Origin: an uncultured Paracoccaceae bacterium | GTDB lineage: Bacteria > Pseudomonadota > Alphaproteobacteria > Rhodobacterales > Rhodobacteraceae | Assembly: GCA_947503765.1 (NCBI GenBank) | Contig: CANNFA010000011.1 | Coordinates: 1-64,000, forward strand | DNA length: 64,000 bases | Direction: 5' to 3' | Shown: in pieces, positions 5,219-23,749 of the stretch | Position numbering within the stretch: the first letter of the stretch is position 1 | Layout: each line of letters begins with the position of its first letter | Made by a program: the position numbers and the translations under genes | The notes under the pieces: model-generated | Database searches by the model: none | The model's input: the letters and a program-made list of their open reading frames with translations, nothing else | Told to the model about the DNA's origin: nothing

Positions 5219-5317
5219 AGTCGGGGTGGCGGAGCGGAAACGAGATGTGCTGCGGGACGGTCCCGTGGTTCATTTCGGCCTCCTCCGGGGCACCCCGCCC
5301 GGGTTCAAGTTGACGTC

Positions 5318-5476
5318 CGATGGCAGGTCTCCTGACTCGCGGGTCAAAGCTGACCGTCCCTTCCCGGCCCTTTTATCGGGTCAGTGGATTGACGGGGCGC
5401 TAACCGCTTACAGTTGCGGGGGCAGTCACGGATTTGGCGCCTGATGGCTACACCGCACCGTGTTCCCATTTCATCC
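5318..5476 (-). promoter_or_regulatory. Cobalamin (B12) riboswitch
   Basis: On the minus strand the conserved elements appear in the right order: GGGAACACGGTG, then ACTGCCCCCGCAACTGTAA with GCGG, CCACTGA, GGGAAGG, and finally AGTCAGGAGACCTGCC (the B12 box region, 5322-5337). It lies upstream of the FecCD-type importer, so high adenosylcobalamin should repress uptake. This is what points to a corrinoid as the imported ligand. The expression platform probably lies between 5218 and 5318. Confidence 0.92.
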
Positions 5477-5554
5477 TGTCCGCCCTTTCGGGCGTCCTGG
5501 AACCATCGCCGGGAAGGAACCGGATGCGCCCGGCGAAGTCAATCTCGATTTCCG

Positions 5555-12375: not shown

Positions 12376-12449
12376 GGCGAGTTGGCGGAGTGGTGACGCA
12401 GCGGATTGCAAATCCGTGTACACCGGTTCGATTCCGGTACTCGCCTCCA
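12376..12449 (+). tRNA. tRNA-Cys(GCA)
   Basis: The sequence folds as a complete tRNA: acceptor GGCGAGT paired with ACTCGCC, anticodon GCA in the loop ATTGCAAAT, T-loop TTCGATTCC and an encoded CCA at 12447-12449. Its 3' part from 12403 is also the left attachment site of the integrated element; the element restores an intact tRNA on integration. Confidence 0.96.
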
Positions 12450-12450
12450 A
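12403..12450 (+). repeat. attL: Left attachment site (48-bp direct repeat in tRNA-Cys)
   Basis: Forty-eight bases from GGATTGCAAATCC to the tRNA CCA plus one A are identical to 23441-23488. They cover the anticodon arm, variable loop, T arm and acceptor 3' strand. This is the classical target of tyrosine recombinases, and the integrase gene begins its coding end 68 bp away. Confidence 0.93.
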
Positions 12451-12510: not shown

Positions 12511-12528
12511 GAAACTTTCACGTTCTGT
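12511..12528 (+). promoter_or_regulatory. Candidate integrase arm-type site, left end
   Basis: GAAACTTTCACGTTCTGT lies 61 bp inside attL and matches 16 of 18 bases of GAAACTTTCGCGTTCCGT at 23362-23379, inside attR, in the same orientation. Paired short repeats near each attachment site are what tyrosine recombinases use as arm sites. The left copy overlaps the integrase stop codon. Confidence 0.4.
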
Positions 12529-13549
12529 CCTTGTTCTGTTCGAAGCGATTTCGCGCGTCCTGCGCGCGTGTCGCCAATTCTCGTTGGCGGATCGGGCCGC
12601 CATACTTTTTCAGCATCTCGACGCCTGAGTGGCCCGTGACGGCCTTGACCATCTCGTCATCGCAACCGGCCAAATAGAGTTCGATAGTCGCATTCTTTCT
12701 CAGGCCATGCGTGACGTATTTTTCAGCCTCGGGATGCTCCATCTTCGCCTTCACCTTGCGCATCTCGTGCGCGATGTTGTGATAGCGCGAGGGCCGCCCC
12801 GCCTTATCCGTGATGACCGTCAAGCCCTTTTTCTCAACGGTCCCCAGATACGCTCTCAGACGTTCTGTCAGCGGTATCCACATCGGCTTGTCGGTTTTGC
12901 CTTGCGTGAAGTCATAGGCACCATCTTTGATATGGCCCCAGCGCATCTCCACGATATCGCCGATCCGCTGGCCGGTTCCGAGGCACAATTCATAAACCAG
13001 ACGGGCACGAGGGGTTGCGACCTTCTCAAATTCAGCCCGCACATCATCTGGCCAAGGCTCCCACCCCTCGCCTTTCTGTTTGAATAGCGGAATGCCTTTG
13101 GCCGGATTGCCATGCTCTTTTTTCAGAAAGCCTATAAGGCGAGCGTGGTTCATTAGGATCACCATCACCTGCACGAGGTAATTGGCCTGCCGCCAACGGT
13201 CCGCGTTCGCGCGGTGAAGTTCGTAGATGTGCTGCGTCTCGATTTTCTGAGGATCTTTGGAGCCCCAGATTGAGCGAATATGCTCAATGTACTTTCGATA
13301 ATCGGCTTGGGTCCGGGGCTTTAATTTCTTGTAAGCGTCACTCTCAAAATAGCTGAGGATCAGCGCCTCAAAATTGCGTTTCACCGGCGCGGGCGCTGGC
13401 CTGCCCTTCAAGAGTCGGTTGTAGTGATCCCAAAACTCAGGCGATCCGGGCTCTTCTTTCATCATCACAGACATGCCGCGTGAGCGCCTTATAAACCGGA
13501 CGTATCCACGATCAGCATAGACGTATTTCGGCAGAATCTTTTTCGTCAT
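12518..13549 (-). CDS. int: Tyrosine recombinase (phage-type integrase)
   Basis: This 343-residue protein has an N-terminal SAM-like core-binding domain (about 60-165) and a C-terminal catalytic domain. The catalytic set is visible: Arg in GTGQRIGDIVEM, Lys in QGKTDKPMWIPL, His-x-x-Arg in VTHGLRKNA, His in TGHSGVEM and the nucleophile Tyr in LKKYGGP. It lies against attL and is read towards it, as expected for an element integrated in a tRNA 3' end. Its start overlaps the upstream 63-residue gene by 4 bp. No excisionase was recognised; the MerR-like regulator or a small protein could do that job. Confidence 0.95.
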   Translation of the reverse strand: MTKKILPKYVYADRGYVRFIRRSRGMSVMMKEEPGSPEFWDHYNRLLKGRPAPAPVKRNFEALILSYFESDAYKKLKPRTQADYRKYIEHIRSIWGSKDPQKIETQHIYELHRANADRWRQANYLVQVMVILMNHARLIGFLKKEHGNPAKGIPLFKQKGEGWEPWPDDVRAEFEKVATPRARLVYELCLGTGQRIGDIVEMRWGHIKDGAYDFTQGKTDKPMWIPLTERLRAYLGTVEKKGLTVITDKAGRPSRYHNIAHEMRKVKAKMEHPEAEKYVTHGLRKNATIELYLAGCDDEMVKAVTGHSGVEMLKKYGGPIRQRELATRAQDARNRFEQNKDRT

Positions 13550-13742: not shown

Positions 13743-14054
13743 TCAGCCGATGCGCACACGCGCGGTCGGATCGTCGGCAGCCGCGTCTACGACTACCACA
13801 CCGATTTTCGGCCCGGCATCAAGAGCCGTAACCTCGCCGCCGGACACCTCGACCTCAGCCCCGAGGGACAGGATTTCGGCGCCCGCCTTGGGCAGGTCGA
13901 ACACACCGCGCAGGGCAAGGGACACATCATCACCCGCCCCTGCATCCGTGGCAGCAACGCCGATCAACGCGCCGATCGTTACGACGTCGCCCGACTTGAT
14001 CGGACCGGGTGCCGGGATGGTCACGCCGTCGCCCGGTTGCACATAGTTCCGCAT
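13743..14054 (-). CDS. DUF2190-family capsid decoration-like protein
   Basis: This 103-residue beta-rich protein starts MRNYVQPGDGVTIPAPGPIK and contains SGDVVTIGALIGVAATD and SLALRGVFDLPKAGAEI, the DUF2190 pattern. In phages such genes sit beside the major capsid gene and encode small decoration or cement proteins on the head surface. Here it follows the connector gene, two genes after the capsid gene, separated from the connector by one base. Function is inferred from family and position. Confidence 0.82.
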   Translation of the reverse strand: MRNYVQPGDGVTIPAPGPIKSGDVVTIGALIGVAATDAGAGDDVSLALRGVFDLPKAGAEILSLGAEVEVSGGEVTALDAGPKIGVVVVDAAADDPTARVRIG

Positions 14055-14055
14055 T

Positions 14056-14319
14056 TCAAACACCTTTCGATGTAGCTGGATAGAAGGTCCGGCGGCGCGC
14101 CGCGTGCGCGCCGCCACAGGCGGCCTCAGCCGCCGCAATTTCCCGGTCGAGGCGAGGCAGGTCGGCAGCACCGTAGCGAACTTGTCGCCGCACGCCGTTA
14201 CCGGCCTCGCTCTCGAACTCGACCACCCCGCCCCCTGTGATGACCTCATCCCGAAGGCCACGCAGAGCGACAGCGCGGGCGCAGGGATCATCGGTTAGGC
14301 TAGGTATAGGGTGAGCCAT
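14056..14319 (-). CDS. gpW-like head-tail connector protein
   Basis: This 87-residue protein has ALRGLRDEVITGGGVVEFE followed by RRQVRYGAADLPRLDREIA, the gpW/head-to-tail joining pattern (helix, two-strand hairpin with VEF, second helix with L-x-x-L-x-x-E-I). gpW closes the DNA-filled lambda head and builds the platform for the tail. It begins just after the capsid fusion stop (TGATATG). In an element without tail genes, this connector would be the interface that accepts a helper phage tail. Confidence 0.7.
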   Translation of the reverse strand: MAHPIPSLTDDPCARAVALRGLRDEVITGGGVVEFESEAGNGVRRQVRYGAADLPRLDREIAAAEAACGGAHAARRRTFYPATSKGV

Positions 14320-14320
14320 A

Positions 14321-16159
14321 TCAGGCCACCTCAACGCGCTGAGCACCACGCCAATCGAGCCATCCAGCCCCAAAGTCGAGGAACGCGCGGAAGGACAGAC
14401 CCAACGTGTTCCATTGCTCTTGGCGCTGAATCTGCACACCTTGCGCTGCCGAAAGATAGGCATACGAAAGCGCGGCGAGACGGGCCGGATCGGCGAAGAC
14501 GAACCACTCGCCATCAGCCAGCCGGGGCTCGACCAGAAGCGTCAAATCGCGCGCAGCGACGTTGGCATCCTCGGTCTTTGCCGGGGTGATCGCGGCGAGT
14601 AGCTTTTCGGCTGTGGTTTCCAGTTCCGGCGGAACCACCAGAAACTTGGGCGCGACCGCGATAGGCTGGCCGCCGATACCTTTGCGCTTTCGCATTGCAA
14701 GGCGCGCTGCCGAAAGGCCAGCCTCATCCAGCGCACCATTGGCGGTATTGCCCCGGCCCGCGTCGAATACCGCCGTGCCGTCCGAAAGGTTGGGATTGGC
14801 GGTAACGAGGTCAACGAGAATCGAGGCTTCGGTCTGCGCCGCCGCCTCGCCAAGCGCGGCGGTCATATCGCCCAGAAGGCCCAGATCGTCATTCACCAGC
14901 AATTCGCGCGACACGTTCAAGGCGCGCGCGAAGGTGTTAAGACGCATGGTCTCGCCAGCCTCACCCCGCGAGGTGTGATTGATCTCCCCATTTTCGGCCA
15001 ACGGTTCAAGCTGCCCAGCCTCGCCAACGCGGATGGCCGCTGAGGGTTTGAAGTTGGGTAGCGTCCGCTGACGGCAGACCCGCTTGAGAGGACTTTCAGC
15101 GGCTTGATACGAGGCCAACGCCACGTTGGTGGCCGCGTTGCTGACAACGAGCGGGAAGTCCGAAGTCGTATGCGCCGCGCGCTGGAAAATCTCATCGGCG
15201 CTTAGGCCCGCCACTGTCTGCCCGGATCGCGTCAGGGCGTCGGTTGCAAGGTCGCGCAGGCTCATGTTGACGAATTGGCGCGAGTGCTCGGCCAGTTCGC
15301 CACCCTGCATCCGATACACCAGAGCATCGGCCTGGCGTTGCTGGATCACCGCCGGATCATCGCCGCCACCGCCATGCACGCGGATACGCGGCGCTTGGCG
15401 TGAGCGTTCGTTGATCGCGTCGAGGATCGCGGCGCGCGCCTCGGTCGTGGTGGCGTTCTGGTCGATCAGATCGTCAGCCACTTCGGAATCGAGGCCGTTC
15501 TGGCGCACGAGCAAACGGATTTCGGTCCGGCGCTCACGTTCGGCATCCTGCCGTGTTTGACCCTGCCCGTCATTGGGCGGGTTTTGCCGGGTCTGCCCGG
15601 TATCTTCTTCGATGGTTTCGGGGTCCATCCCGGCACCTCCATGCTCGCCCTGCCGCAGTCGCGCCGATGGATCGGCGGGATTTGAGGTGAGGGTGATTTC
15701 GGTTAACCGCCAAACGGCGGGCGATTTTGTTCTAATGTCCTGACCTGTCCGGGCCGTGCGCCAGCTTTGCACGGCATAGCCAATGGAAACGCCGCTAAGC
15801 GATCCATCCGCAATTCGTTCTCTCGCCCATTCCGCATCTGCGGCGGCGGTGATCCGCAGGCGCGCCATGACCTTCTCGCCGTCGCGCCAAACCTTCTCGA
15901 CCCGGCCCAATACATGGCGGCCCGAGTCGGTGCGGTGGCTGTCGATCACGGCCAGACCCTCAGCGCCGCGCAGGTCGAGCGTGGCCGCGTCGAGGATTTC
16001 GAGGAAGGGGCCTTGAGCGTCCATCCGGCGCACGGGTGTGGGCGTTGCGATAACCGCCTCGACCGTCCGCGCCTGAGCGTCCCATGTCGAGGGACGGGTT
16101 TGCGCGGTGCGCTGCATGGCGGCACCCGCCGGGGCCTCTCGTGTCAAATAGTCAAGCAT
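14321..16159 (-). CDS. Prohead protease/major capsid protein fusion
   Basis: The 612 residues combine two head proteins. Residues 1-175 are a prohead protease of the HK97/U35 type, with the catalytic His in VIDSHRTDSGRHVLG and Ser in DGSLSGVSIGYAV. Residues 180-290 are a Gln/Arg/Glu-rich, probably coiled-coil linker (GQTRQDAERERRTEIRLLV) that can serve as scaffold. Residues 300-612 are an HK97-fold major capsid domain (Mu gpT-like), with LPNFKPSAAIRVGEAGQLEP and RALNVSRELLVNDDLG. Such fusions are known in phages and self-process during maturation. Its start overlaps the portal stop by 8 bp. Confidence 0.88.
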   Translation of the reverse strand: MLDYLTREAPAGAAMQRTAQTRPSTWDAQARTVEAVIATPTPVRRMDAQGPFLEILDAATLDLRGAEGLAVIDSHRTDSGRHVLGRVEKVWRDGEKVMARLRITAAADAEWARERIADGSLSGVSIGYAVQSWRTARTGQDIRTKSPAVWRLTEITLTSNPADPSARLRQGEHGGAGMDPETIEEDTGQTRQNPPNDGQGQTRQDAERERRTEIRLLVRQNGLDSEVADDLIDQNATTTEARAAILDAINERSRQAPRIRVHGGGGDDPAVIQQRQADALVYRMQGGELAEHSRQFVNMSLRDLATDALTRSGQTVAGLSADEIFQRAAHTTSDFPLVVSNAATNVALASYQAAESPLKRVCRQRTLPNFKPSAAIRVGEAGQLEPLAENGEINHTSRGEAGETMRLNTFARALNVSRELLVNDDLGLLGDMTAALGEAAAQTEASILVDLVTANPNLSDGTAVFDAGRGNTANGALDEAGLSAARLAMRKRKGIGGQPIAVAPKFLVVPPELETTAEKLLAAITPAKTEDANVAARDLTLLVEPRLADGEWFVFADPARLAALSYAYLSAAQGVQIQRQEQWNTLGLSFRAFLDFGAGWLDWRGAQRVEVA

Positions 16160-17534
16160 TGTCGTTTCCGTTCTCAGCTAGGCCAAGGGCGGTTTCCCGG
16201 TTGGAGTCAGCGGCGCGCTCGGCGTCCACATCGTCTGCATTCCAGCCCATTTCGGCGATTGCCGCGCTGCGGCTTGTGAGGCCCGCGTCGAGCGCCTCGC
16301 GGGTTGCGGCCATATCCTTCCCGGGGTCGATCATCTCGAATTTCGGGAACATCCAATCGGAAGCCATCGTGAGCGCATCTGCGCGGCCTTCAAGGGCCTC
16401 GCGAGCCAGCCAACGCCGCCACACCGGGCGCAGGAATTGCGGAACCAAAGTGCCATACTGGACGGCCTCGATCCGGCGTTTGAAGGGCAGCAGGCCAGCG
16501 CGCAGAGACGAATAGCTGGCGTCGGTAAGATCGCCGTCCAGCAGATGCGACGGCACCCCAAGGGCCGCAGCAAGCCCGCGCAGTGAGGTCCGCACAAGGG
16601 CCGGTGCCTCGCGAAGCTGTTGCGGGCTGTTAAATTCGACCGTTGTGCCAGAGGGCAGCCGCGTGAGCGCACCCGGCTCGAAAACCGTCTCGCCGCTCCA
16701 CTCGTCCAGAGTCCCTGCATCTGCGATATCGCGGATGAAACCGGCGTGAAGGGCAGCGACCTTCGCGGACACCAAGAGCGCATCTTGCAACGCGTCGAGT
16801 TCGGACGCGGGCAGGATCGCGGGGGCGAGCCATGACAAGCCGCGCACCTGACCGGGGCCTAACGGGTGAACAATGTGGATCACGTCAGATGCAGGAATGC
16901 GCACCGCTGGGGCCGCAACCGTTACACTCGCCTCGGGGCGCTCGGGCAGTATCCAATACGCCAGTCGGCGGCCCGCCGCGTCATATTCCACGCCCTGCGC
17001 CATGTGTCGGCCATCGGCCAGCACACCCGTCCGCGAACGGTCCAGCAATTCCGGGGGCAACGCTTGAATCCGCAAGCCCTCTTGGCCGTCATGGATCAGG
17101 GCAATAGCCTCGCCAGATACCACCAAATCACGAGCGAATATCGCTTGAAGCCCGTAGAAGTCGGTGCGGCCCGCGTGATCTGCATCTTCTGCCCATGCAT
17201 CGAAGCGTGCGACCAGATCGCGCCGCGTATCAGCATCGGTGGCGCGGGGTGCAGGACGCGCGCCCGTACCGGTTAGATAGGTTTGAAGGTTTCCAACGCC
17301 GTTGCTGATCCACGGGTTATTTTGCGCGAGATATGCTGCACGGCGCGCGACAACCTCGGCAGATGCGCCGATCTCTGCATTTGTGCTTCCAAACGAGCCG
17401 AGAGACGCCCCGCGCCGCGCCACAGTTGCGCCGTCGAGGGACCTACGACTTTCGGATGCAGCGGGAGAGGAAGCCGAGGTGGCGGCCCCGGGACGCGGGG
17501 CGCTACGCCCGAAAACTCTCTGAATCAAGCTCAT
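16152..17534 (-). CDS. Lambda-family phage portal protein
   Basis: This 460-residue protein shows the GpB/lambda portal features: LAQNNPWISNGVGNLQTYLTG near the N-terminus, FARDLVVSGEAIALI, HPLGPGQVRGLSWLAPAI and PFKRRIEAVQYGTLVP. Twelve copies would form the ring through which DNA is pumped. It is slightly shorter than lambda gpB and keeps the Ala/Asn-rich tail. It overlaps the MerR-like regulator upstream (ATGA) and the capsid gene downstream, so the head genes are one operon. Confidence 0.92.
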   Translation of the reverse strand: MSLIQRVFGRSAPRPGAATSASSPAASESRRSLDGATVARRGASLGSFGSTNAEIGASAEVVARRAAYLAQNNPWISNGVGNLQTYLTGTGARPAPRATDADTRRDLVARFDAWAEDADHAGRTDFYGLQAIFARDLVVSGEAIALIHDGQEGLRIQALPPELLDRSRTGVLADGRHMAQGVEYDAAGRRLAYWILPERPEASVTVAAPAVRIPASDVIHIVHPLGPGQVRGLSWLAPAILPASELDALQDALLVSAKVAALHAGFIRDIADAGTLDEWSGETVFEPGALTRLPSGTTVEFNSPQQLREAPALVRTSLRGLAAALGVPSHLLDGDLTDASYSSLRAGLLPFKRRIEAVQYGTLVPQFLRPVWRRWLAREALEGRADALTMASDWMFPKFEMIDPGKDMAATREALDAGLTSRSAAIAEMGWNADDVDAERAADSNRETALGLAENGNDNA

Positions 17535-18001
17535 TCGTGCGACCCTTCTTGCTCTGGGTAGAGTTCGGAAAGGACATTTTGAATCAGATCGGAGAGGCCG
17601 ATAATCATTGCCGATTTGTCCGGGCCAGTCACCGAAAGCAGGTCAGCCCAGTCGAGCGGTGTCCCAGCATCGACGTCATAGCTGGAAAACATCCCCTCGC
17701 GGTAATGTTTGAGAAAAACCCAGACATTTGGCTGGCGCTTTTCAATCGCCTTCTCAATTTTTGAGCGCAGGTGAATTGCGGCAGCAAGCGCATCTGTGTC
17801 CGACATTGGCACGCTGCTTCTGAGACGGGTGGCGAGCGCGAAAACAACAACATCGCGGTCGCTGTAACGTGCGGTCGTGCCATCGGCCTCGTATCCAAGA
17901 TCGACCAATAGCCCGCGACGGCGGTACGAGCGCAATGTGACCGCGTTGATCCCTGTCACGCGCTCCACTACCGCCGCTTTGTGTGTGTTCTCATCCGTCA
18001 T
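17531..18001 (-). CDS. MerR-like DNA-binding regulator of the element
   Basis: This 156-residue protein has an N-terminal winged-helix of the MerR type: VVERVTGINAVTLRSYRRRG, then GTTARYSDRDVVVFALATRL. The C-terminal 70 residues are not a known effector domain. Two matching palindromes (18014-18035 and 18053-18074) lie immediately upstream, so it probably controls its own promoter and the divergent PIN-like gene, and through read-through the portal and capsid genes it overlaps. In satellites of enterobacteria the AlpA activator has this controlling job; this protein is a candidate equivalent. The ATG at 18001 is preferred over an in-frame upstream start at 18028 that would sit inside the operator. 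Confidence 0.75.
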   Translation of the reverse strand: MTDENTHKAAVVERVTGINAVTLRSYRRRGLLVDLGYEADGTTARYSDRDVVVFALATRLRSSVPMSDTDALAAAIHLRSKIEKAIEKRQPNVWVFLKHYREGMFSSYDVDAGTPLDWADLLSVTGPDKSAMIIGLSDLIQNVLSELYPEQEGSHE

Positions 18002-18013
18002 CGTGGCCTCCAG

Positions 18014-18074
18014 TTTCGATGGCACCATATCGGAAAATACCTCACCGTCAAGTTTCGATGTAATCTTATCGAAA
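18014..18074. promoter_or_regulatory. Two palindromic operator-like sites, 39 bp apart
   Basis: Site 1 (18014-18035) is TTTCGAT-8 bases-ATCGGAA and site 2 (18053-18074) is TTTCGAT-8 bases-ATCGAAA. Both have identical geometry; site 2 is a perfect 7-bp inverted repeat. They lie between the divergent MerR-like regulator and the PIN-like gene. The 39-bp spacing is close to four helical turns, allowing co-operative binding on one DNA face. Confidence 0.75.
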
Positions 18075-18197: not shown

Positions 18198-18809
18198 GTG
18201 GATCAAGAAAGAGTGATAACATTTACCTTAGATACGAATTGCATAGTCGATGTAGATGAAAATCGCTCTCAAGCTAAGTATGTCGATGCCTTAATAAGAA
18301 ACCATAGATGCGGAGAAATTGAAGTTTCAGTTGTGGCGATGAGCGCATCGGAAAGGCAAAAAGATGGAACGTACATTTCAAATTATAATGAATTCAGCCA
18401 TCGCTTAACTTCTCTAGGACTTAGTGACCTTAAGCAAATATTCCCTTTGCTATATTGGGACGTTTCGTTTTGGGGCGCTTCCCTTCTAGGCAGCCCGGAA
18501 ATGATAGAATTGGAAAAGAGAATCCACAAAATCCTCTTTCCAGATTTGCCATTTGACTTTTCGGAGTTTGCTAAGCATAAAAATCTTGGCGTCAACGCAA
18601 AAACTAAATCAGAAGGTGCTAAGAAATGGCGAAACGCTTTGTGTGATCGGCAAATGTTCTGGGCACATGTATATTATGGTCATGATGTTTTTGTAACTTC
18701 AGATTCAAACTTCAAGCGGAAACTTGCTGCTAGTTCGGAATTCTCGGAATCAAAAATTATGACTCCAGAGGAAGCCTGTATTTGGATGTGCTTTCCTAAG
18801 ATGAAATAA
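18198..18809 (+). CDS. AT-rich PIN-like domain protein (candidate defence or moron gene)
   Basis: This 203-residue protein is the only plus-strand gene of the element and is strikingly AT-rich compared with its neighbours. It opens ITFTLDTNCIVDVDE, the first conserved Asp of PIN-fold nucleases, and ends VFVTSDSNFKRKLAA, matching the last PIN strand with Asp (S/T-x-D-x-x-F). An acidic centre (MIELEKRIHK) could supply the middle carboxylate. No signal peptide or membrane segment is seen. The start is uncertain: GTG at 18198 or GTG at 18213. It converges on the terminase large subunit and overlaps its 3' end by 14 bp. PIN proteins cut RNA as toxins or defence effectors; the role here is inference. 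Confidence 0.65.
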   Translation: MDQERVITFTLDTNCIVDVDENRSQAKYVDALIRNHRCGEIEVSVVAMSASERQKDGTYISNYNEFSHRLTSLGLSDLKQIFPLLYWDVSFWGASLLGSPEMIELEKRIHKILFPDLPFDFSEFAKHKNLGVNAKTKSEGAKKWRNALCDRQMFWAHVYYGHDVFVTSDSNFKRKLAASSEFSESKIMTPEEACIWMCFPKMK

Positions 18810-20574
18810 ATTTTGAACGCACGGTATTGCGAGATTTGAAATTCTCTTTTTTCTCGCTTGATAGAATGGCAGCGCGGGCGTCCCAGTTTGGTGATAACAC
18901 CTGCCGTGCCGCGAACGCGTAAACCGTGCAATCCAACGTCTCGGCACGCCGTCCCGGTATGCGCTCAAAGCGGCGCTGCGGTTGCCCCCGGCTGTAGCGA
19001 ACGACTAACCTTTCACTGGCAAGCTGCTCAAAAAACACCGGCTCAAGATCATCGCTAAACCGGATCGAGTTGCCACGCGAAAGCCGGTCAAAGATAGCGC
19101 CCTTGATACCGTCTACGCCAATGATCCAAAGCCGCCCGGCGCCGGATTTTCCCTTGCTCGGAGCGATCCATTGGCGCGCGCCGGCCATGCCTTTACCGGC
19201 CAGCACTTTGCGCCGCGCTCTGGCAGCGCAGAATGCCTGAACGCGCGCCATCGTGGTGCCGTCACCCGCGTCGATCACGACAGATTCTATTCCGATCTCC
19301 CCTCCTAGCGGATGCGCCCAGCGGGTCCGCAGCACCTCATCCAGTTCTGCCCATGCGAGGTCATCATCCCATGCGCCCCAAACGATTGCATGCCCAAGGA
19401 CGAACGCTGTGCCATCCCGGCCCCAGCCGATGAACGTGCATTCCGAACGATCATGTTGAACGTCCACGCCCGCAGTTACGATCAAGGATTCGACCGGCAT
19501 CCGATCAAGGCCGAACGGTTCCGCGCGGGCGGCAAGGGCTGTGTCGTCCACCGCCTCGCCCGCAGTTCGCCAGCCTTGGCCTAGGAGCGTATTTGTCCAA
19601 ACTTGAAGGGCCGCCGGATCATCCTTGGCCGTCAGAAATTCCTCAGCAATCTTGCCCCATGATGCATTTGCCATGAGCGAGGTCAGCGCGTTCAATCGGA
19701 AACCCGCATGGCCATTGATCTGAGGGCGGGTGGAGCGCCAAGCGCCCTCCGCTACCATCTGAGCCTTGTAGCGTTCCTCGATGATTTCCTCACAATGGGG
19801 GCACTGCCAGGCGGCCTCATCGGGCTTACCCTCGGGCCATTGAATATCCCGCCAGTTCAGTTCCGAGAACGTGCCGCACGATGGGCATGGCACTTCCCAA
19901 ACTCTGCCATCAGACCCCGCGTAGCTGCGCAAAACCGGACTTGTCTCGGCGAAAATCGGCGTCGAGCCAATCACCAGTTTTCGGTCTGCGAAACTGAGGG
20001 TCCGCCGCTCAGCCAACTTGATAGGATCGCCCTCGGCGGTCGGCTCCATCGCGTCCGCCTCGTCCACGAGCAAAACCCTGACGTTATGCCGGCGAAGGTT
20101 GCGAGGCGCACGGGCTGCGACCACCTTGAGCGATCCGCCGGCGAAGCGGCGGCTCAACAGGGTGTTGCGTCCGCCCTCTGCCGCGTCTTTATCGAGCATC
20201 CCGGAAAGCGAAGGCGAAGCGGCGAACGTCGGTTCAACGTCGCTCACCATGTAATCGCGCGCGTCCGCTTCGGTCGGCAGCAGGGCGAGGATAGGGGCAG
20301 GGTCGTTTGCGACATAGGACGCTAGAGCGCCTGTCAGAAGCGTTGTGAAACCCACGCGGACCGGCTTAACGAGTGTTACCCGCTCGATAGCAGGATCGCC
20401 CAACGCGTCAGCGATCTCGCGTTGGAACGGCCAAAGCCGGACGGCACCCGGCAACGCCGACACACCCTCGGGCAGATAACAGTTCGCCTCGATCCATTCG
20501 CTCAAAGGGAGGCGCGCAGGCGGCCGCAAAGCCGCCAACGCGCTCGATCTCACACGGATCATCGTCTCAGTCAT
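18796..20574 (-). CDS. Terminase large subunit (lambda GpA type)
   Basis: This 592-residue protein has the GpA layout. An ATPase half carries LVKPVRVGFTTLLTGALASY (a P-loop variant), RVLLVDEADAMEP (Walker B) and VIGSTPIFAETSPV (coupling motif). A zinc-ribbon-like pair follows (CPSCGTF, CPHCEE), then an RNase H-like nuclease half with TAGVDVQHDRSECTFIGWG and VVIDAGDGTTM. It packages DNA into the prohead with the small subunit. The last 20 residues come from the AT-rich insert and are Lys/Ser-rich, suggesting that insertion of the PIN-like gene replaced the original C-terminus. It overlaps the small subunit gene by 8 bp. Confidence 0.93.
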   Translation of the reverse strand: MTETMIRVRSSALAALRPPARLPLSEWIEANCYLPEGVSALPGAVRLWPFQREIADALGDPAIERVTLVKPVRVGFTTLLTGALASYVANDPAPILALLPTEADARDYMVSDVEPTFAASPSLSGMLDKDAAEGGRNTLLSRRFAGGSLKVVAARAPRNLRRHNVRVLLVDEADAMEPTAEGDPIKLAERRTLSFADRKLVIGSTPIFAETSPVLRSYAGSDGRVWEVPCPSCGTFSELNWRDIQWPEGKPDEAAWQCPHCEEIIEERYKAQMVAEGAWRSTRPQINGHAGFRLNALTSLMANASWGKIAEEFLTAKDDPAALQVWTNTLLGQGWRTAGEAVDDTALAARAEPFGLDRMPVESLIVTAGVDVQHDRSECTFIGWGRDGTAFVLGHAIVWGAWDDDLAWAELDEVLRTRWAHPLGGEIGIESVVIDAGDGTTMARVQAFCAARARRKVLAGKGMAGARQWIAPSKGKSGAGRLWIIGVDGIKGAIFDRLSRGNSIRFSDDLEPVFFEQLASERLVVRYSRGQPQRRFERIPGRRAETLDCTVYAFAARQVLSPNWDARAAILSSEKKENFKSRNTVRSKFISS

Positions 20575-21022
20575 CGCCTGCTACCTCCGTCAGCACCTCG
20601 CGCAGTTCCGCGTCTATCTGAGCCGCGTCTGCCGCTGTCAGATGGGGGAGGCGTTGGCGCACCCGTGAAGGTGCGGCCAGCACGCCAGCCCGGACCCGCC
20701 GCAGAATCTCCGCCCACTCACGCTCCACGGCCTGCGCCTCGATCAGATCACCGCGCAGCGCAGCCGCTCGCAATTCTTTCTCGTCGGCTTGCGCCTTCGC
20801 CAGCCGCGTTCGCTGATCGTTGAGTTCGGAATTGGCAGTGAGAGGACGGCCATGCTTCGCTGCCAGCGCTCGCAAGTGCTCGACGTAGATTGTCACTGAC
20901 GCGAGCGCGTATTTGCCCCTTCCGGCTTTCTTCAAAAGCCCGTCGCGCACAAGCTGCGCCACGGTCTTTGTCGAGACACCCAAAAGAGCCGCCATCTGTT
21001 GAAGGGTCAGATTTTCAACCAT
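20567..21022 (-). CDS. Terminase small subunit (Nu1-like)
   Basis: This 151-residue protein begins with a winged-helix DNA-binding motif (LTLQQMAALLGVSTKTVAQLV) like lambda Nu1, followed by a helical stretch (RTRLAKAQADEKELRAAALRG) that binds the large subunit, and ends acidic. It should recognise the element's packaging site. Its own terminase would let the element direct packaging of its DNA without using helper terminase. Confidence 0.88.
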   Translation of the reverse strand: MVENLTLQQMAALLGVSTKTVAQLVRDGLLKKAGRGKYALASVTIYVEHLRALAAKHGRPLTANSELNDQRTRLAKAQADEKELRAAALRGDLIEAQAVEREWAEILRRVRAGVLAAPSRVRQRLPHLTAADAAQIDAELREVLTEVAGDD

Positions 21023-21460: not shown

Positions 21461-21760
21461 TCAGCCTTTCATTTCGTAGAGTTCATCGGCGAGTTCGCGC
21501 AGCGAATTGGCGATCTCGGATTTTTCCTCGTGGAAGCGATGCGGATCGCGGTGACTGACTGTCAGGCGCGAAACGCGGGCCGCCAGTTTATCGGCGAGCG
21601 CCGCCGGGTCGGGCGTTCCTCGTTCCCGTTCCCGGTCAGCGTTCCCCGCCCCTAGCCCCCCTACGGGGGGCGTAGGGGTTGGGGGCACGACAACATGACG
21701 GCGTTCCCTTTTCGGATGGGAACGGTGGGGGAACGGTAGGGAACGGAAAGATGCACTCAT
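21461..21760 (-). CDS. Small element protein, N-terminus overlapping the repeat cluster
   Basis: This 99-residue protein overlaps the helicase stop as ATGA. Its first half is Pro/Arg/His-rich and is encoded by the GGGAACGG repeats and the GC-rich stem-loop. The second half looks like an ordinary helical domain (AALADKLAARVSRLTVSH, then SEIANSLRELADELYEMKG). Function is unknown. Confidence 0.55.
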   Translation of the reverse strand: MSASFRSLPFPHRSHPKRERRHVVVPPTPTPPVGGLGAGNADRERERGTPDPAALADKLAARVSRLTVSHRDPHRFHEEKSEIANSLRELADELYEMKG

Positions 21761-21962
21761 GGCTGAACCCTCCGAACCGTATCGCCTTTGATTTCCACGA
21801 GACCCTTGCTTTCAAGGGCTTTCTTGACTTTATGGAACGCTGTGCGTCGGCTGCTTTCTCCGTTCCCCAAGTCAGGAACAAGCCGTTCCCAATGGGAACG
21901 CCAGAGGGGAACGGTGGCCCAATTTACCGTTCCCACGGGGGTGGGAACGGTGAGGGAACGGT
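21621..21962. repeat. Cluster of GGGAACGG/CCGTTCCC repeats with stem-loop (candidate origin)
   Basis: At least seven GGGAACG copies lie on the plus strand (21718, 21729, 21739, 21894, 21907, 21943, 21954; most continue as GGGAACGGT). Seven CGTTCCC copies are in the opposite orientation (21621, 21627, 21640, 21702, 21861, 21884, 21928). A GC-rich stem-loop at 21649-21678 (CCCCTAG-CCCCCC / GGGGGGC-GTAGGGG) lies among them. The cluster spans the end of the RepA-like helicase gene and the start of the next gene. Repeated short sites beside a replicative helicase are typical of iteron origins. Confidence 0.75.
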
Positions 21963-22842
21963 CGGCGCGTTTTGAGGCCATATCGAGCGCTTGGAGACCC
22001 TTGCTCTGGCGATCGCTAAGGGGGGCCTCGGGCGCGTTGAGCGCGCCCGGTCCCCTATCCTTGACGACCTCAACAATCGCCGATGACACCGCGTCCCCAT
22101 CGTCATCGACGCCAAGGTGAACCGGGCGAAGCGCGTATGAAAACGCCCCGCCAGAGGCCATGTCGCGCTGCTTTGTGGCCCGTGCCGTCGCCACCTCCCC
22201 GGAGCGCGTGAGGGCAATTTCGGTATCCACCGCCGCGCGTAGGGCGCTGCTGCCACGAGCGCCCTTGGCACCGTCCTTGCCCACATGATGCACCAGCATG
22301 ATATGTGCGCCGGTGGCCCTGCGGATTTCATCAACGGCCCGGATCAGGCGCGCCATGTCTGCGGCGCTGTTTTCATCGCCGGTGCCCATCGCACGGCTGA
22401 GCGTGTCGATCACGATAAGGCCGGGGCGTTCGATCAGGCCGCCGATCTCGTTTAAGATATCGCGGACGCCAAGGCCGCAAGCGCCGTCGAAAAGATCAAC
22501 GGCCTCCGCGAGAATGCGAAACCGCCCATGCGCCTTGTCGGTCAGGCTGGGGCTGTCGGCCTTCAAGGCGGCCAGACGATTGCCAAGCCCACCACCACCC
22601 TCAGTGGCAACGTAGACCACGGGCGCGCGCCTAACGCGCGACCCGTGCCAGCGCTCACCTGCGGCGACGTGCAAGGCCATGTCGAGGGCGAGGAACGTTT
22701 TGCCGGTGTTGCTTTCCCCGTAGAGGACCGACACGGCATCCCGGTCGAGCCATCCCTTGACCGTGTAATTGCAGGTCAGCCGTGGCTTGATCTCATCGAG
22801 GCCGAAAAGGCGCTGGGGCCTAATTGGTGTCACCTGTGTCAC
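21757..22842 (-). CDS. RepA-like (DnaB-type RecA fold) replication helicase/ATPase
   Basis: This 361-residue protein has a RecA-like core of the AAA_25/RepA family: Walker A in YGESNTGKTFLALDMAL, Walker B in GLIVIDTLSRAMGTG and HIMLVHHVGKDGAKGARG, the hallmark His pair of RSF1010 RepA-type helicases. The C-terminal 60 residues form a small winged-helix-like unit (SSRRTAFHKVKKALESKGLV), which could bind the repeats that overlap its own coding sequence. The start is a GTG overlapping the upstream stop (GTGA). It probably drives autonomous replication after excision, in the position of pri-rep genes in other satellites. Confidence 0.82.
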   Translation of the reverse strand: MTQVTPIRPQRLFGLDEIKPRLTCNYTVKGWLDRDAVSVLYGESNTGKTFLALDMALHVAAGERWHGSRVRRAPVVYVATEGGGGLGNRLAALKADSPSLTDKAHGRFRILAEAVDLFDGACGLGVRDILNEIGGLIERPGLIVIDTLSRAMGTGDENSAADMARLIRAVDEIRRATGAHIMLVHHVGKDGAKGARGSSALRAAVDTEIALTRSGEVATARATKQRDMASGGAFSYALRPVHLGVDDDGDAVSSAIVEVVKDRGPGALNAPEAPLSDRQSKGLQALDMASKRADRSLTVPTPVGTVNWATVPLWRSHWERLVPDLGNGESSRRTAFHKVKKALESKGLVEIKGDTVRRVQP

Positions 22843-23183
22843 GCCGCTGCCCTTCCTTGCCCCTGAGCCCATTCGAGGAACGCGGCGCGGTCGCTTTCGG
22901 ACAGAGCCTCCCAGCAAGCCGCCATCGCCGCCTTGCGCTCCACTTCGGACGCCCAGCCTGCCCAGTGGCGCGCCTCATCCATGGCGTTGAGGAAGGGGGG
23001 AATCGGGCCGCAGAACGGACGCAGGAACGCCTCTGCGACCTCGTGTGCCTCATCCTCTGGCAATGTCCCCAGAGCCGCCGTGGCGAGCGCCTGACGCTCG
23101 CCCACGGTCAACCGGATCGCCCAGACCCGAACGGCCCCCAGCCATGAGGATACCACGCCCAAGGTGAGCGCATAGACCAGCAT
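22839..23183 (-). CDS. Element protein upstream of helicase, unknown function
   Basis: This 114-residue mostly helical protein starts MLVYALTLGVVSSWLGAVRV and contains GTLPEDEAHEVAEAFLRPF and AWGxE-like helices ending EWAQGQGRAAA. Trp-rich helices suggest a compact globular fold rather than a membrane protein. It overlaps the helicase start (GTGA). The frame is open well upstream, so a longer protein from a non-ATG start is possible; the ATG at 23183 is the only in-frame one within the element. No family recognised. Confidence 0.5.
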   Translation of the reverse strand: MLVYALTLGVVSSWLGAVRVWAIRLTVGERQALATAALGTLPEDEAHEVAEAFLRPFCGPIPPFLNAMDEARHWAGWASEVERKAAMAACWEALSESDRAAFLEWAQGQGRAAA

Positions 23184-23749
23184 CCGGGCCGCCCTGATAT
23201 GGCGATCCTTGAAGCCGTCTAGGCTTGCCCTTGGGGGCGTTTTCGGGGTATCTTTGTCGTAGGAAATTTGCTCGGCAGCATTTTCCTTGACCGATCTGGC
23301 GCCGCGGGCATCACACTGCCTCGCGGCGTCTTTCGTTTTTGGAGGTGGTGAAACGCCGTTTGAAACTTTCGCGTTCCGTTCACGGTTTGTCAGGGGTATT
23401 TTTGAAACACTACCCTCTGAATTTATTAGATTTTCCGGCTGGATTGCAAATCCGTGTACACCGGTTCGATTCCGGTACTCGCCTCCAAAAATTCCATTCC
23501 TTGACAATCCCTCAAGATTTCTGGTGCCTTGGCGGCTGTGATTGAGGCCAGTACAGGCACTGTTTTGGTGGCCTCCAGGTTTTCGAAGCGGGTTTTCGGA
23601 CGCTGCCTTCCCTCCCAGCGTCCACCACAACCCGAACCGTGCCGGCCATCATCCGCCAAACTTCGTTTTGCAGACCTCCACGCCCCGACCGACCCTGGAG
23701 CGCTGCCGATTGATCGCGTCTGGCGGAGTGCGCACCCGCGCTTGCAGGT
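23184..23749. other. Element right end, attR and host spacer without a gene
   Basis: No gene is supported. 23184-23440 is the right arm of the element and includes the repeat GAAACTTTCGCGTTCCGT at 23362-23379, the counterpart of the left arm site. After attR (23441-23488), 260 bp of host spacer leads to the end of the ROK gene. This spacer is what followed tRNA-Cys before integration. Confidence 0.6.
23441..23488 (+). repeat. attR: Right attachment site (48-bp direct repeat of tRNA-Cys 3' part)
   Basis: This is identical to 12403-12450. It lacks the 5' half of the tRNA, so it is not a second tRNA gene. Flanking bases differ on both sides, which sets the repeat length at 48 bp and the element length at about 11.04 kb from repeat to repeat. 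Confidence 0.93.

Follow-up and report, generated by a model that had tools for sequence, protein, structure and literature searches.

Copies of a 7-base word crowd the end of a helicase gene in an uncultured Paracoccaceae bacterium, and we asked what these repeats are for. The preliminary description of the window, by which we mean the whole 64-kb stretch of DNA analysed, offered two interpretations: the replication origin of a mobile element, or a packaging site of the cos type recognized by a small terminase encoded nearby. The repeats lie within an integrated element of 11,038 bp, measured from one att repeat to the other (Table 1). Among its ORFs (15 compared with Pfam and 10 with PHROGs, with small match-less ORFs remaining) we found no match to tail, lysis, head-tail connector, or HNH genes, and the genome gave no second match to the large terminase subunit at E 1e-5. 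With capsid genes of its own and none for a tail among those found, the element resembles a capsid-forming satellite. A locus in Rhodobacter sp. SW2 (L003) has a like gene order, with identities of 66% for TerL, 46% for TerS, and 36% for the portal protein, and in G001, a genome of the same family as that of the window, an 82% identical integrase is encoded about 50 bp or less from the tRNA-Cys match. Extra partial copies of the tRNA-Cys 3' end are present in genomes G005 and G007, about 14 to 41 kb off on the same contig, as other elements in this site would leave, and the gene seems to be a hot spot for integration. The opposite-strand ORF, flanked by terL and the MerR-portal genes, sits in the lowest-GC kilobase of the window. 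This slot is occupied by other ORFs in several related loci and looks like a cargo position. The ORF in the window has PIN-like motifs, judged by eye only, and our search for defence genes in the slot gave nothing convincing, with one weak DarT match (E 0.004) in locus L193.

Table 1. Features of the integrated element and of the proposed origin in the window
Feature	Position	Strand	Remarks
Cobalamin riboswitch	5305-5522	-	Rfam RF00174, 118.8 bits; unrelated to the element
tRNA-Cys gene	12376-12449		
Left att repeat	12403-12450	+	tRNA-Cys 3' end; 48 bp identical to right repeat
Tyrosine integrase	12518-13549	-	Adjoins the tRNA; PF00589 6e-17
Phage cement protein	13743-14075	-	PF09956 9e-20
Prohead protease-major capsid fusion	14321-16159	-	phrog_4523 1.6e-151, PF25209
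Portal protein	16152-17534	-	PF05136 8.8e-76
MerR-like helix-turn-helix protein	17531-18028	-	PF13411 9e-6
Opposite-strand ORF, possibly cargo	18198-18809	+	Without family match
Terminase large subunit (gpA type)	18796-20574	-	
Terminase small subunit	20567-21022	-	phrog_57 1.4e-23
ORF99	21461-21760	-	ATG overlaps helicase stop (ATGA); N-terminal half holds half of the array
Iteron array	21621-21960		14 GGGAACG, 7 per strand; proposed replication origin
GC-rich hairpin inside array	21649-21678	-	At the site where relatives have a CTWWAG-type palindrome
Relatively AT-rich spacer between two iteron groups	21747-21833		47% GC; element 60%
RepA-fold (AAA_25) helicase, proposed initiator	21757-22917	-	PF13481 2.8e-40, AlphaFold, Foldseek
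Palindrome of two inverted iterons	21926-21951		Hairpin score 11; 0 of 25 Markov copies as good
Right att repeat	23441-23488	+	48 bp identical to left repeat

The preliminary description had estimated about fourteen copies of a 7-base core in both orientations within 340 bp, and an exact count of GGGAACG agrees with it: 14 of the 24 copies in the 64-kb window lie inside the array. The 8-mer GGGAACGG has 10 exact copies in the array and 14 in the whole window, compared with a maximum of two in any 342-bp stretch of 30 order-3 Markov simulations of the window. A genome-wide count of the motif had been suggested as a check. Across the 3,981,048 bp of the genome, GGGAACG occurs 497 times and GGGAACGG 204 times, and control words made by reading the two backwards are about twice as common (985 and 487 copies, respectively). 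Since the word itself is not rare in this genome, it is the clustering that is exceptional: of nine same-orientation GGGAACG pairs at most 30 bp apart, eight are in the array (the backwards-read control has 13 such places genome-wide, with locations not listed).

As stated before, the array runs through coding sequence: the final 207 nt of the helicase gene contain seven copies, and the next ORF, which overlaps this gene, has another seven in its first 150 nt. The copies in the helicase gene encode about residues 319 to 352, just ahead of the predicted recognition helix. Because the genome is GC-rich and the copies are coding, they could in principle reflect chance or a codon or peptide repeat with no role at the DNA level. 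However, 5,000 synonymous recodings gave at most three copies at the helicase end and five in the next ORF (means of 0.60 and 0.76, respectively). That none of them reached the observed copy number points to selection of the pattern as DNA, and together with the concentration of close pairs and the different words that relatives have at the same place, it makes an array without DNA-level function hardly credible. The array-coded N-terminal half of ORF99 is variable, while the last 35 to 50 residues, in the C-terminal half, are conserved; ORF99-like ends of this kind are kept even in L198 and L201, loci without a detected helicase relative.

We gathered relatives by helicase similarity and not by the presence of an array, reducing 279 loci to 206 by removal of those at least 90% identical and dropping loci with less than 200 bp past the stop codon. 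An array (P ≤ 0.02 against Markov copies) was present at the end of the helicase gene in 143 of the 206 relatives, compared with 13 of 206 windows placed at random in these loci, and at least seven repeat copies were present in 113 relatives and in four control windows. The Markov test detected no array in the remaining 63 relatives. By subset, arrays were found in 63 of 93 loci of the first set (redundancy included), 45 of 61 viral contigs, and 80 of 125 loci of the third set. Most arrays (126 of 140) extend past the helicase stop and have their start no further than 150 bp beyond the stop codon. The repeat words vary, with 77 seed hexamers among 140 arrays; examples are CGTTCCC (in the window), CGTTACC, CGTCACA, CGGGACA, CCGGACA, CGGGATA, and CGTGACA. 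An ATG or GTG overlaps the helicase stop in 52 of 152 loci, a raw count without background.

Arrays adjoin the helicase gene in phage isolates, too. We hand-picked 19 named phage, plasmid, and E. coli records for diversity from 1,169 phage and 19 plasmid matches (L066 and L096 to L113), all except L066 before their arrays had been seen. Thirteen of them have an array, and none was found in L101, L106, L107, L110, L111, and L113. Four circular phage-like records in the plasmid collection (L096 to L099) carry this helicase together with an array. The type thus spans phage isolates (of Roseobacter and others), phage-like records of the plasmid collection, satellite-like elements, and alpha-, beta-, and gammaproteobacterial genomes.

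A packaging site (cos or pac) recognized by the small terminase would fit an element that encodes its own terminase and whose small-subunit gene, correctly placed nearby by the preliminary description, is 600 bp from the array; moreover, lambda-type cosB sites are repeats near terS, as described in PMC6092414. The origin and packaging readings differ in what they predict for related terminase loci, because arrays that follow the type of replication gene are expected of an origin and not of a terminase site. We compared 12 loci, including the window, out of 38 matches to its TerS. Arrays were present in three of five loci with an AAA_25 helicase, in all four with a VapE-type helicase, and in none of three with an HTH_36 or unknown replication gene. 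Six of the seven arrays overlap the last 250 bp of the helicase gene or start within 100 bp past its stop, the exception being that of L202, which lies 378 bp further on. Four of the seven follow VapE-type helicases, which belong to another Pfam family than AAA_25. No array was counted in L194 and L195 despite a related TerS and an AAA_25 helicase. The arrays hence track the replication gene rather than TerS, and phage isolates and phage-like plasmid records have them next to the helicase as well, which makes a packaging site very unlikely. Of the two earlier interpretations, the origin has good support from the relatives and from the block exchange and word covariation described below, whereas the packaging site is not borne out by the 12 terminase loci.

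Two side observations concern these loci. Loci L193 to L202 combine one TerS-TerL-portal-capsid cassette with at least three replication modules, namely, an AAA_25 helicase, a VapE-type helicase, and a small HTH_36 protein. In L195 (7095 region), the peptide after the helicase repeats ANPRELPANS twice, which hints at a longer DNA repeat.

A pair of E. coli PICI-like elements at one roxA-phoQ site allowed a direct comparison of replication modules. They are 82% identical on the side that reaches into the rep gene and 92% identical on the side beyond the array, with an unrelated block between, which starts within the rep gene and ends past the array. In L179, the block contains a D5-type pri-rep followed by GGTAGACA-type repeats (identified by eye); in the other element, L100, it contains a RepA-like helicase with AAGTGA repeats. 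As the block between the conserved flanks is unrelated, initiator and array differ as a unit. From its gene content, we take L179 to be EcCICFT073, for which PMC6092414 reports plasmid maintenance in E. coli by rep plus ori and a reduction of it on deletion of ori.

An AlphaFold model of the helicase in the window (13-row alignment, mean pLDDT of 80) has a RecA-type core, and the best PDB matches of the predicted monomer in Foldseek were structures of RSF1010 RepA (1nlf, 1olo, and 1g8y). The core is followed by predicted helices at residues 302 to 317, 336 to 346, and 354 to 370 and then by a two-strand wing; from this secondary structure, the C-terminus (about residues 302 to 383) is predicted to be a winged helix. 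Across 109 training and hold-out loci, repeat-word similarity and winged-helix identity were correlated (r = 0.46). The correlation persisted in a partial Mantel test controlling for the ATPase core (r = 0.44; 0 of 500 permutations as high), while that between words and the ATPase core was −0.07 in the same loci once the winged helix was accounted for.

We scanned 85 C-terminal columns in 68 training loci for residues associated with the repeat word. A recognition-helix residue, aromatic anchor +2, ranked first with a z of 11.4, ahead of 6.4 for the runner-up. Of 44 loci with R at this position, 39 have ACA words, and of 24 with another residue, 18 have other words. Of 10 changes between R and non-R, seven fell on a tree branch with a change of repeat class (14 such changes, 134 branches, P = 2.7e-6). 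The training P values are optimistic, as the word classes (ACA, ACC, CCC, or other) were defined after viewing the training arrays. The column scan and the tree test rest on the same training loci.

The rule was fixed in writing before the hold-out test. The hold-out comprised 126 loci, of which 125 had at least 200 bp past the stop and 80 had an array; after 15 that were at least 90% like training loci had been dropped, 48 non-redundant loci were left, 40 of them with an aligned helix. Among these 40, there were 13 loci with R and ACA, four with R and another class, nine with a non-R residue and ACA, and 14 with neither (Fisher P = 0.027), in an automatic classification that is crude, since words such as TGTATGAA were scored as ACA via the opposite strand. 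Small residues predicted ACC in four of seven cases. A strict one-residue recognition code was rejected by the hold-out: K predicted CCC in one of three cases, and L303 has the FHKVK helix of the window yet a CGTTACC array. Covariation and hold-out together implicate the winged-helix domain, with the single-residue code as only part of the specificity, and the C-terminal winged helix of the helicase apparently reads the repeats, insofar as sequence comparison can tell.

Linkage to the helicase would be expected of two other kinds of site as well. The repeats could be an autoregulatory operator, bound by the helicase to repress or fine-tune the operon it belongs to, and words and helix would covary in this case, too; origin and operator functions are often combined. 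However, the array lies at the 3' end of the helicase gene instead of ahead of it, a number of 14 copies is high for an operator, and in EcCICFT073 deletion of ori reduced plasmid maintenance (PMC6092414). We consider a purely regulatory site quite unlikely. The second candidate is a partition or incompatibility site of the parS type instead of a start site. Plasmid iterons also serve incompatibility, and arrays are present in the circular phage-like plasmid records. But the array tracks the helicase, and it also occurs where no partition should be needed, in integrated elements and in phage isolates; we regard this function as extremely unlikely.

Overall, the position of the arrays in relatives, the covariation of the words, the block exchange, the phage-like circles, the predicted fold, and the recoding control lead us to propose, with a probability of about 0.86, that the array serves an integrated, capsid-forming satellite-like element as its origin of replication.

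The proposed origin contains structures besides the iterons. The stem-loop reported in the preliminary description is real: the single-stranded fold of positions 21640 to 21690 (minus strand) has −19.8 kcal/mol, compared with −12.5 kcal/mol for shuffled sequences (z = −3.3; 1 of 200 shuffles as good). Its sequence, C6-TAC-G6, lacks the CTWWAG core of relatives but is in an equal position. The CTWWAG hexamer is present around the stop in 78 of 139 array loci, compared with 328 of 2,901 control windows. It forms the centre of an inverted-repeat hairpin in L002 and L003, and close variants of it do so in L014 and L115 (fold z of −7.6, −4.9, −9.2, and −5.7 for L002, L003, L014, and L115, respectively). 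In rep-ori regions of the PICI and SaPI type, an AT-rich region is flanked by two sets of iterons; in the window, the relatively AT-rich spacer, a candidate melting region, lies between iteron groups, but the GC-rich hairpin (76.5% GC at 21647 to 21680) sits between other iterons.

From this arrangement, we infer binding, melting, priming, excision, and a helper dependence of the element as follows. The element would be induced and excised to give a circle, and the helicase encoded by the neighbouring gene would bind the 7- to 8-bp repeats through its C-terminal winged helix and assemble on them as a ring. It could then open weaker DNA nearby or an extruded hairpin, so that replication of the circle would start without a separate initiator protein, with priming provided by the host, a helper phage, or the hairpin.

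We regard a wider proposal as an even bet, namely, that RepA-fold helicases with a C-terminal winged helix, each reading the origin at the end of its gene, constitute one widespread, exchangeable, and self-sufficient replicon in satellites, phages, and phage-plasmids. Its origin word would drift with a readable recognition helix and could be predicted or rewritten from the protein, and a CTWWAG-type hairpin between inverted iterons would be its conserved second element. If the winged helix reads the repeats, a rule could suffice to find the replication origins in many phages, satellites, and phage-plasmids. One helix could then serve to predict incompatibility between elements that share a cell, and more than 100 natural pairs could show how a protein-DNA recognition code evolves. 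The locus also points to capsid-forming satellite-like elements in alphaproteobacteria, with replication modules that look interchangeable. We found no earlier description of a RepA-fold type with co-diversifying arrays in the open-access literature searched.

Several known systems share parts of this organization. The element is like the cf-PICIs in being satellite-sized and integrated and in encoding its own capsid, protease, portal, TerL, and TerS, according to the definition in PMC10690885. It also has an integrase, 48-bp att repeats, and no tail match in the ORFs scanned. Because head-tail connector and HNH matches were likewise not found in the scanned ORFs, we call it cf-PICI-like and do not count it as a member.

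The helicase core is closest, as a predicted monomer, to RepA of the IncQ plasmid RSF1010, whose oriV has iterons plus hairpins. RSF1010 uses the RepA helicase, the RepB primase, and a separate iteron-binding protein, RepC. In the window, by contrast, the predicted winged helix is fused to the helicase, and no separate RepC initiator or RepB primase was found among the element ORFs scanned. In the crenarchaeal plasmid pRN1, the replication protein has a winged helix at its C-terminus, and an essential stem-loop directly follows its gene, a layout that the authors propose for some phages; this stem-loop is 100 bp long and free of iterons, and the helicase-primase of pRN1 is of the SF3 type (PMC4234260).

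The layout is already known from SaPIs and E. coli PICIs. SaPIs and Gram-positive PICIs have a helicase gene with short repeats at its 3' end, and the window has its array at and across the helicase stop. The C-terminal domain of the SaPI Rep has been proposed to read iterons located directly downstream of the gene (PMC7581432, citing Ubeda 2007). The SaPI Reps named in that paper belong to DUF927 or D5-type families, whereas the helicase here is of the RepA/RecA-fold AAA_25 type, and the array of the window differs in running through both coding sequences and in holding a GC-rich hairpin. EcCICFT073 is a functional replicon with iterons immediately 3' of rep, as described in PMC6092414. The gene we take as its rep encodes a D5_N-type primase-helicase, unlike the AAA_25 helicase of the window, and the other E. 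coli element at this chromosomal site (L100) has a RepA-like helicase with its own array. Hence, the origin type described here differs from SaPI and PICI origins in helicase family, breadth, and co-diversification, and what appears to be new is the RepA-fold type, its breadth, its co-diversifying arrays, and a recognition helix that can be read only in part.
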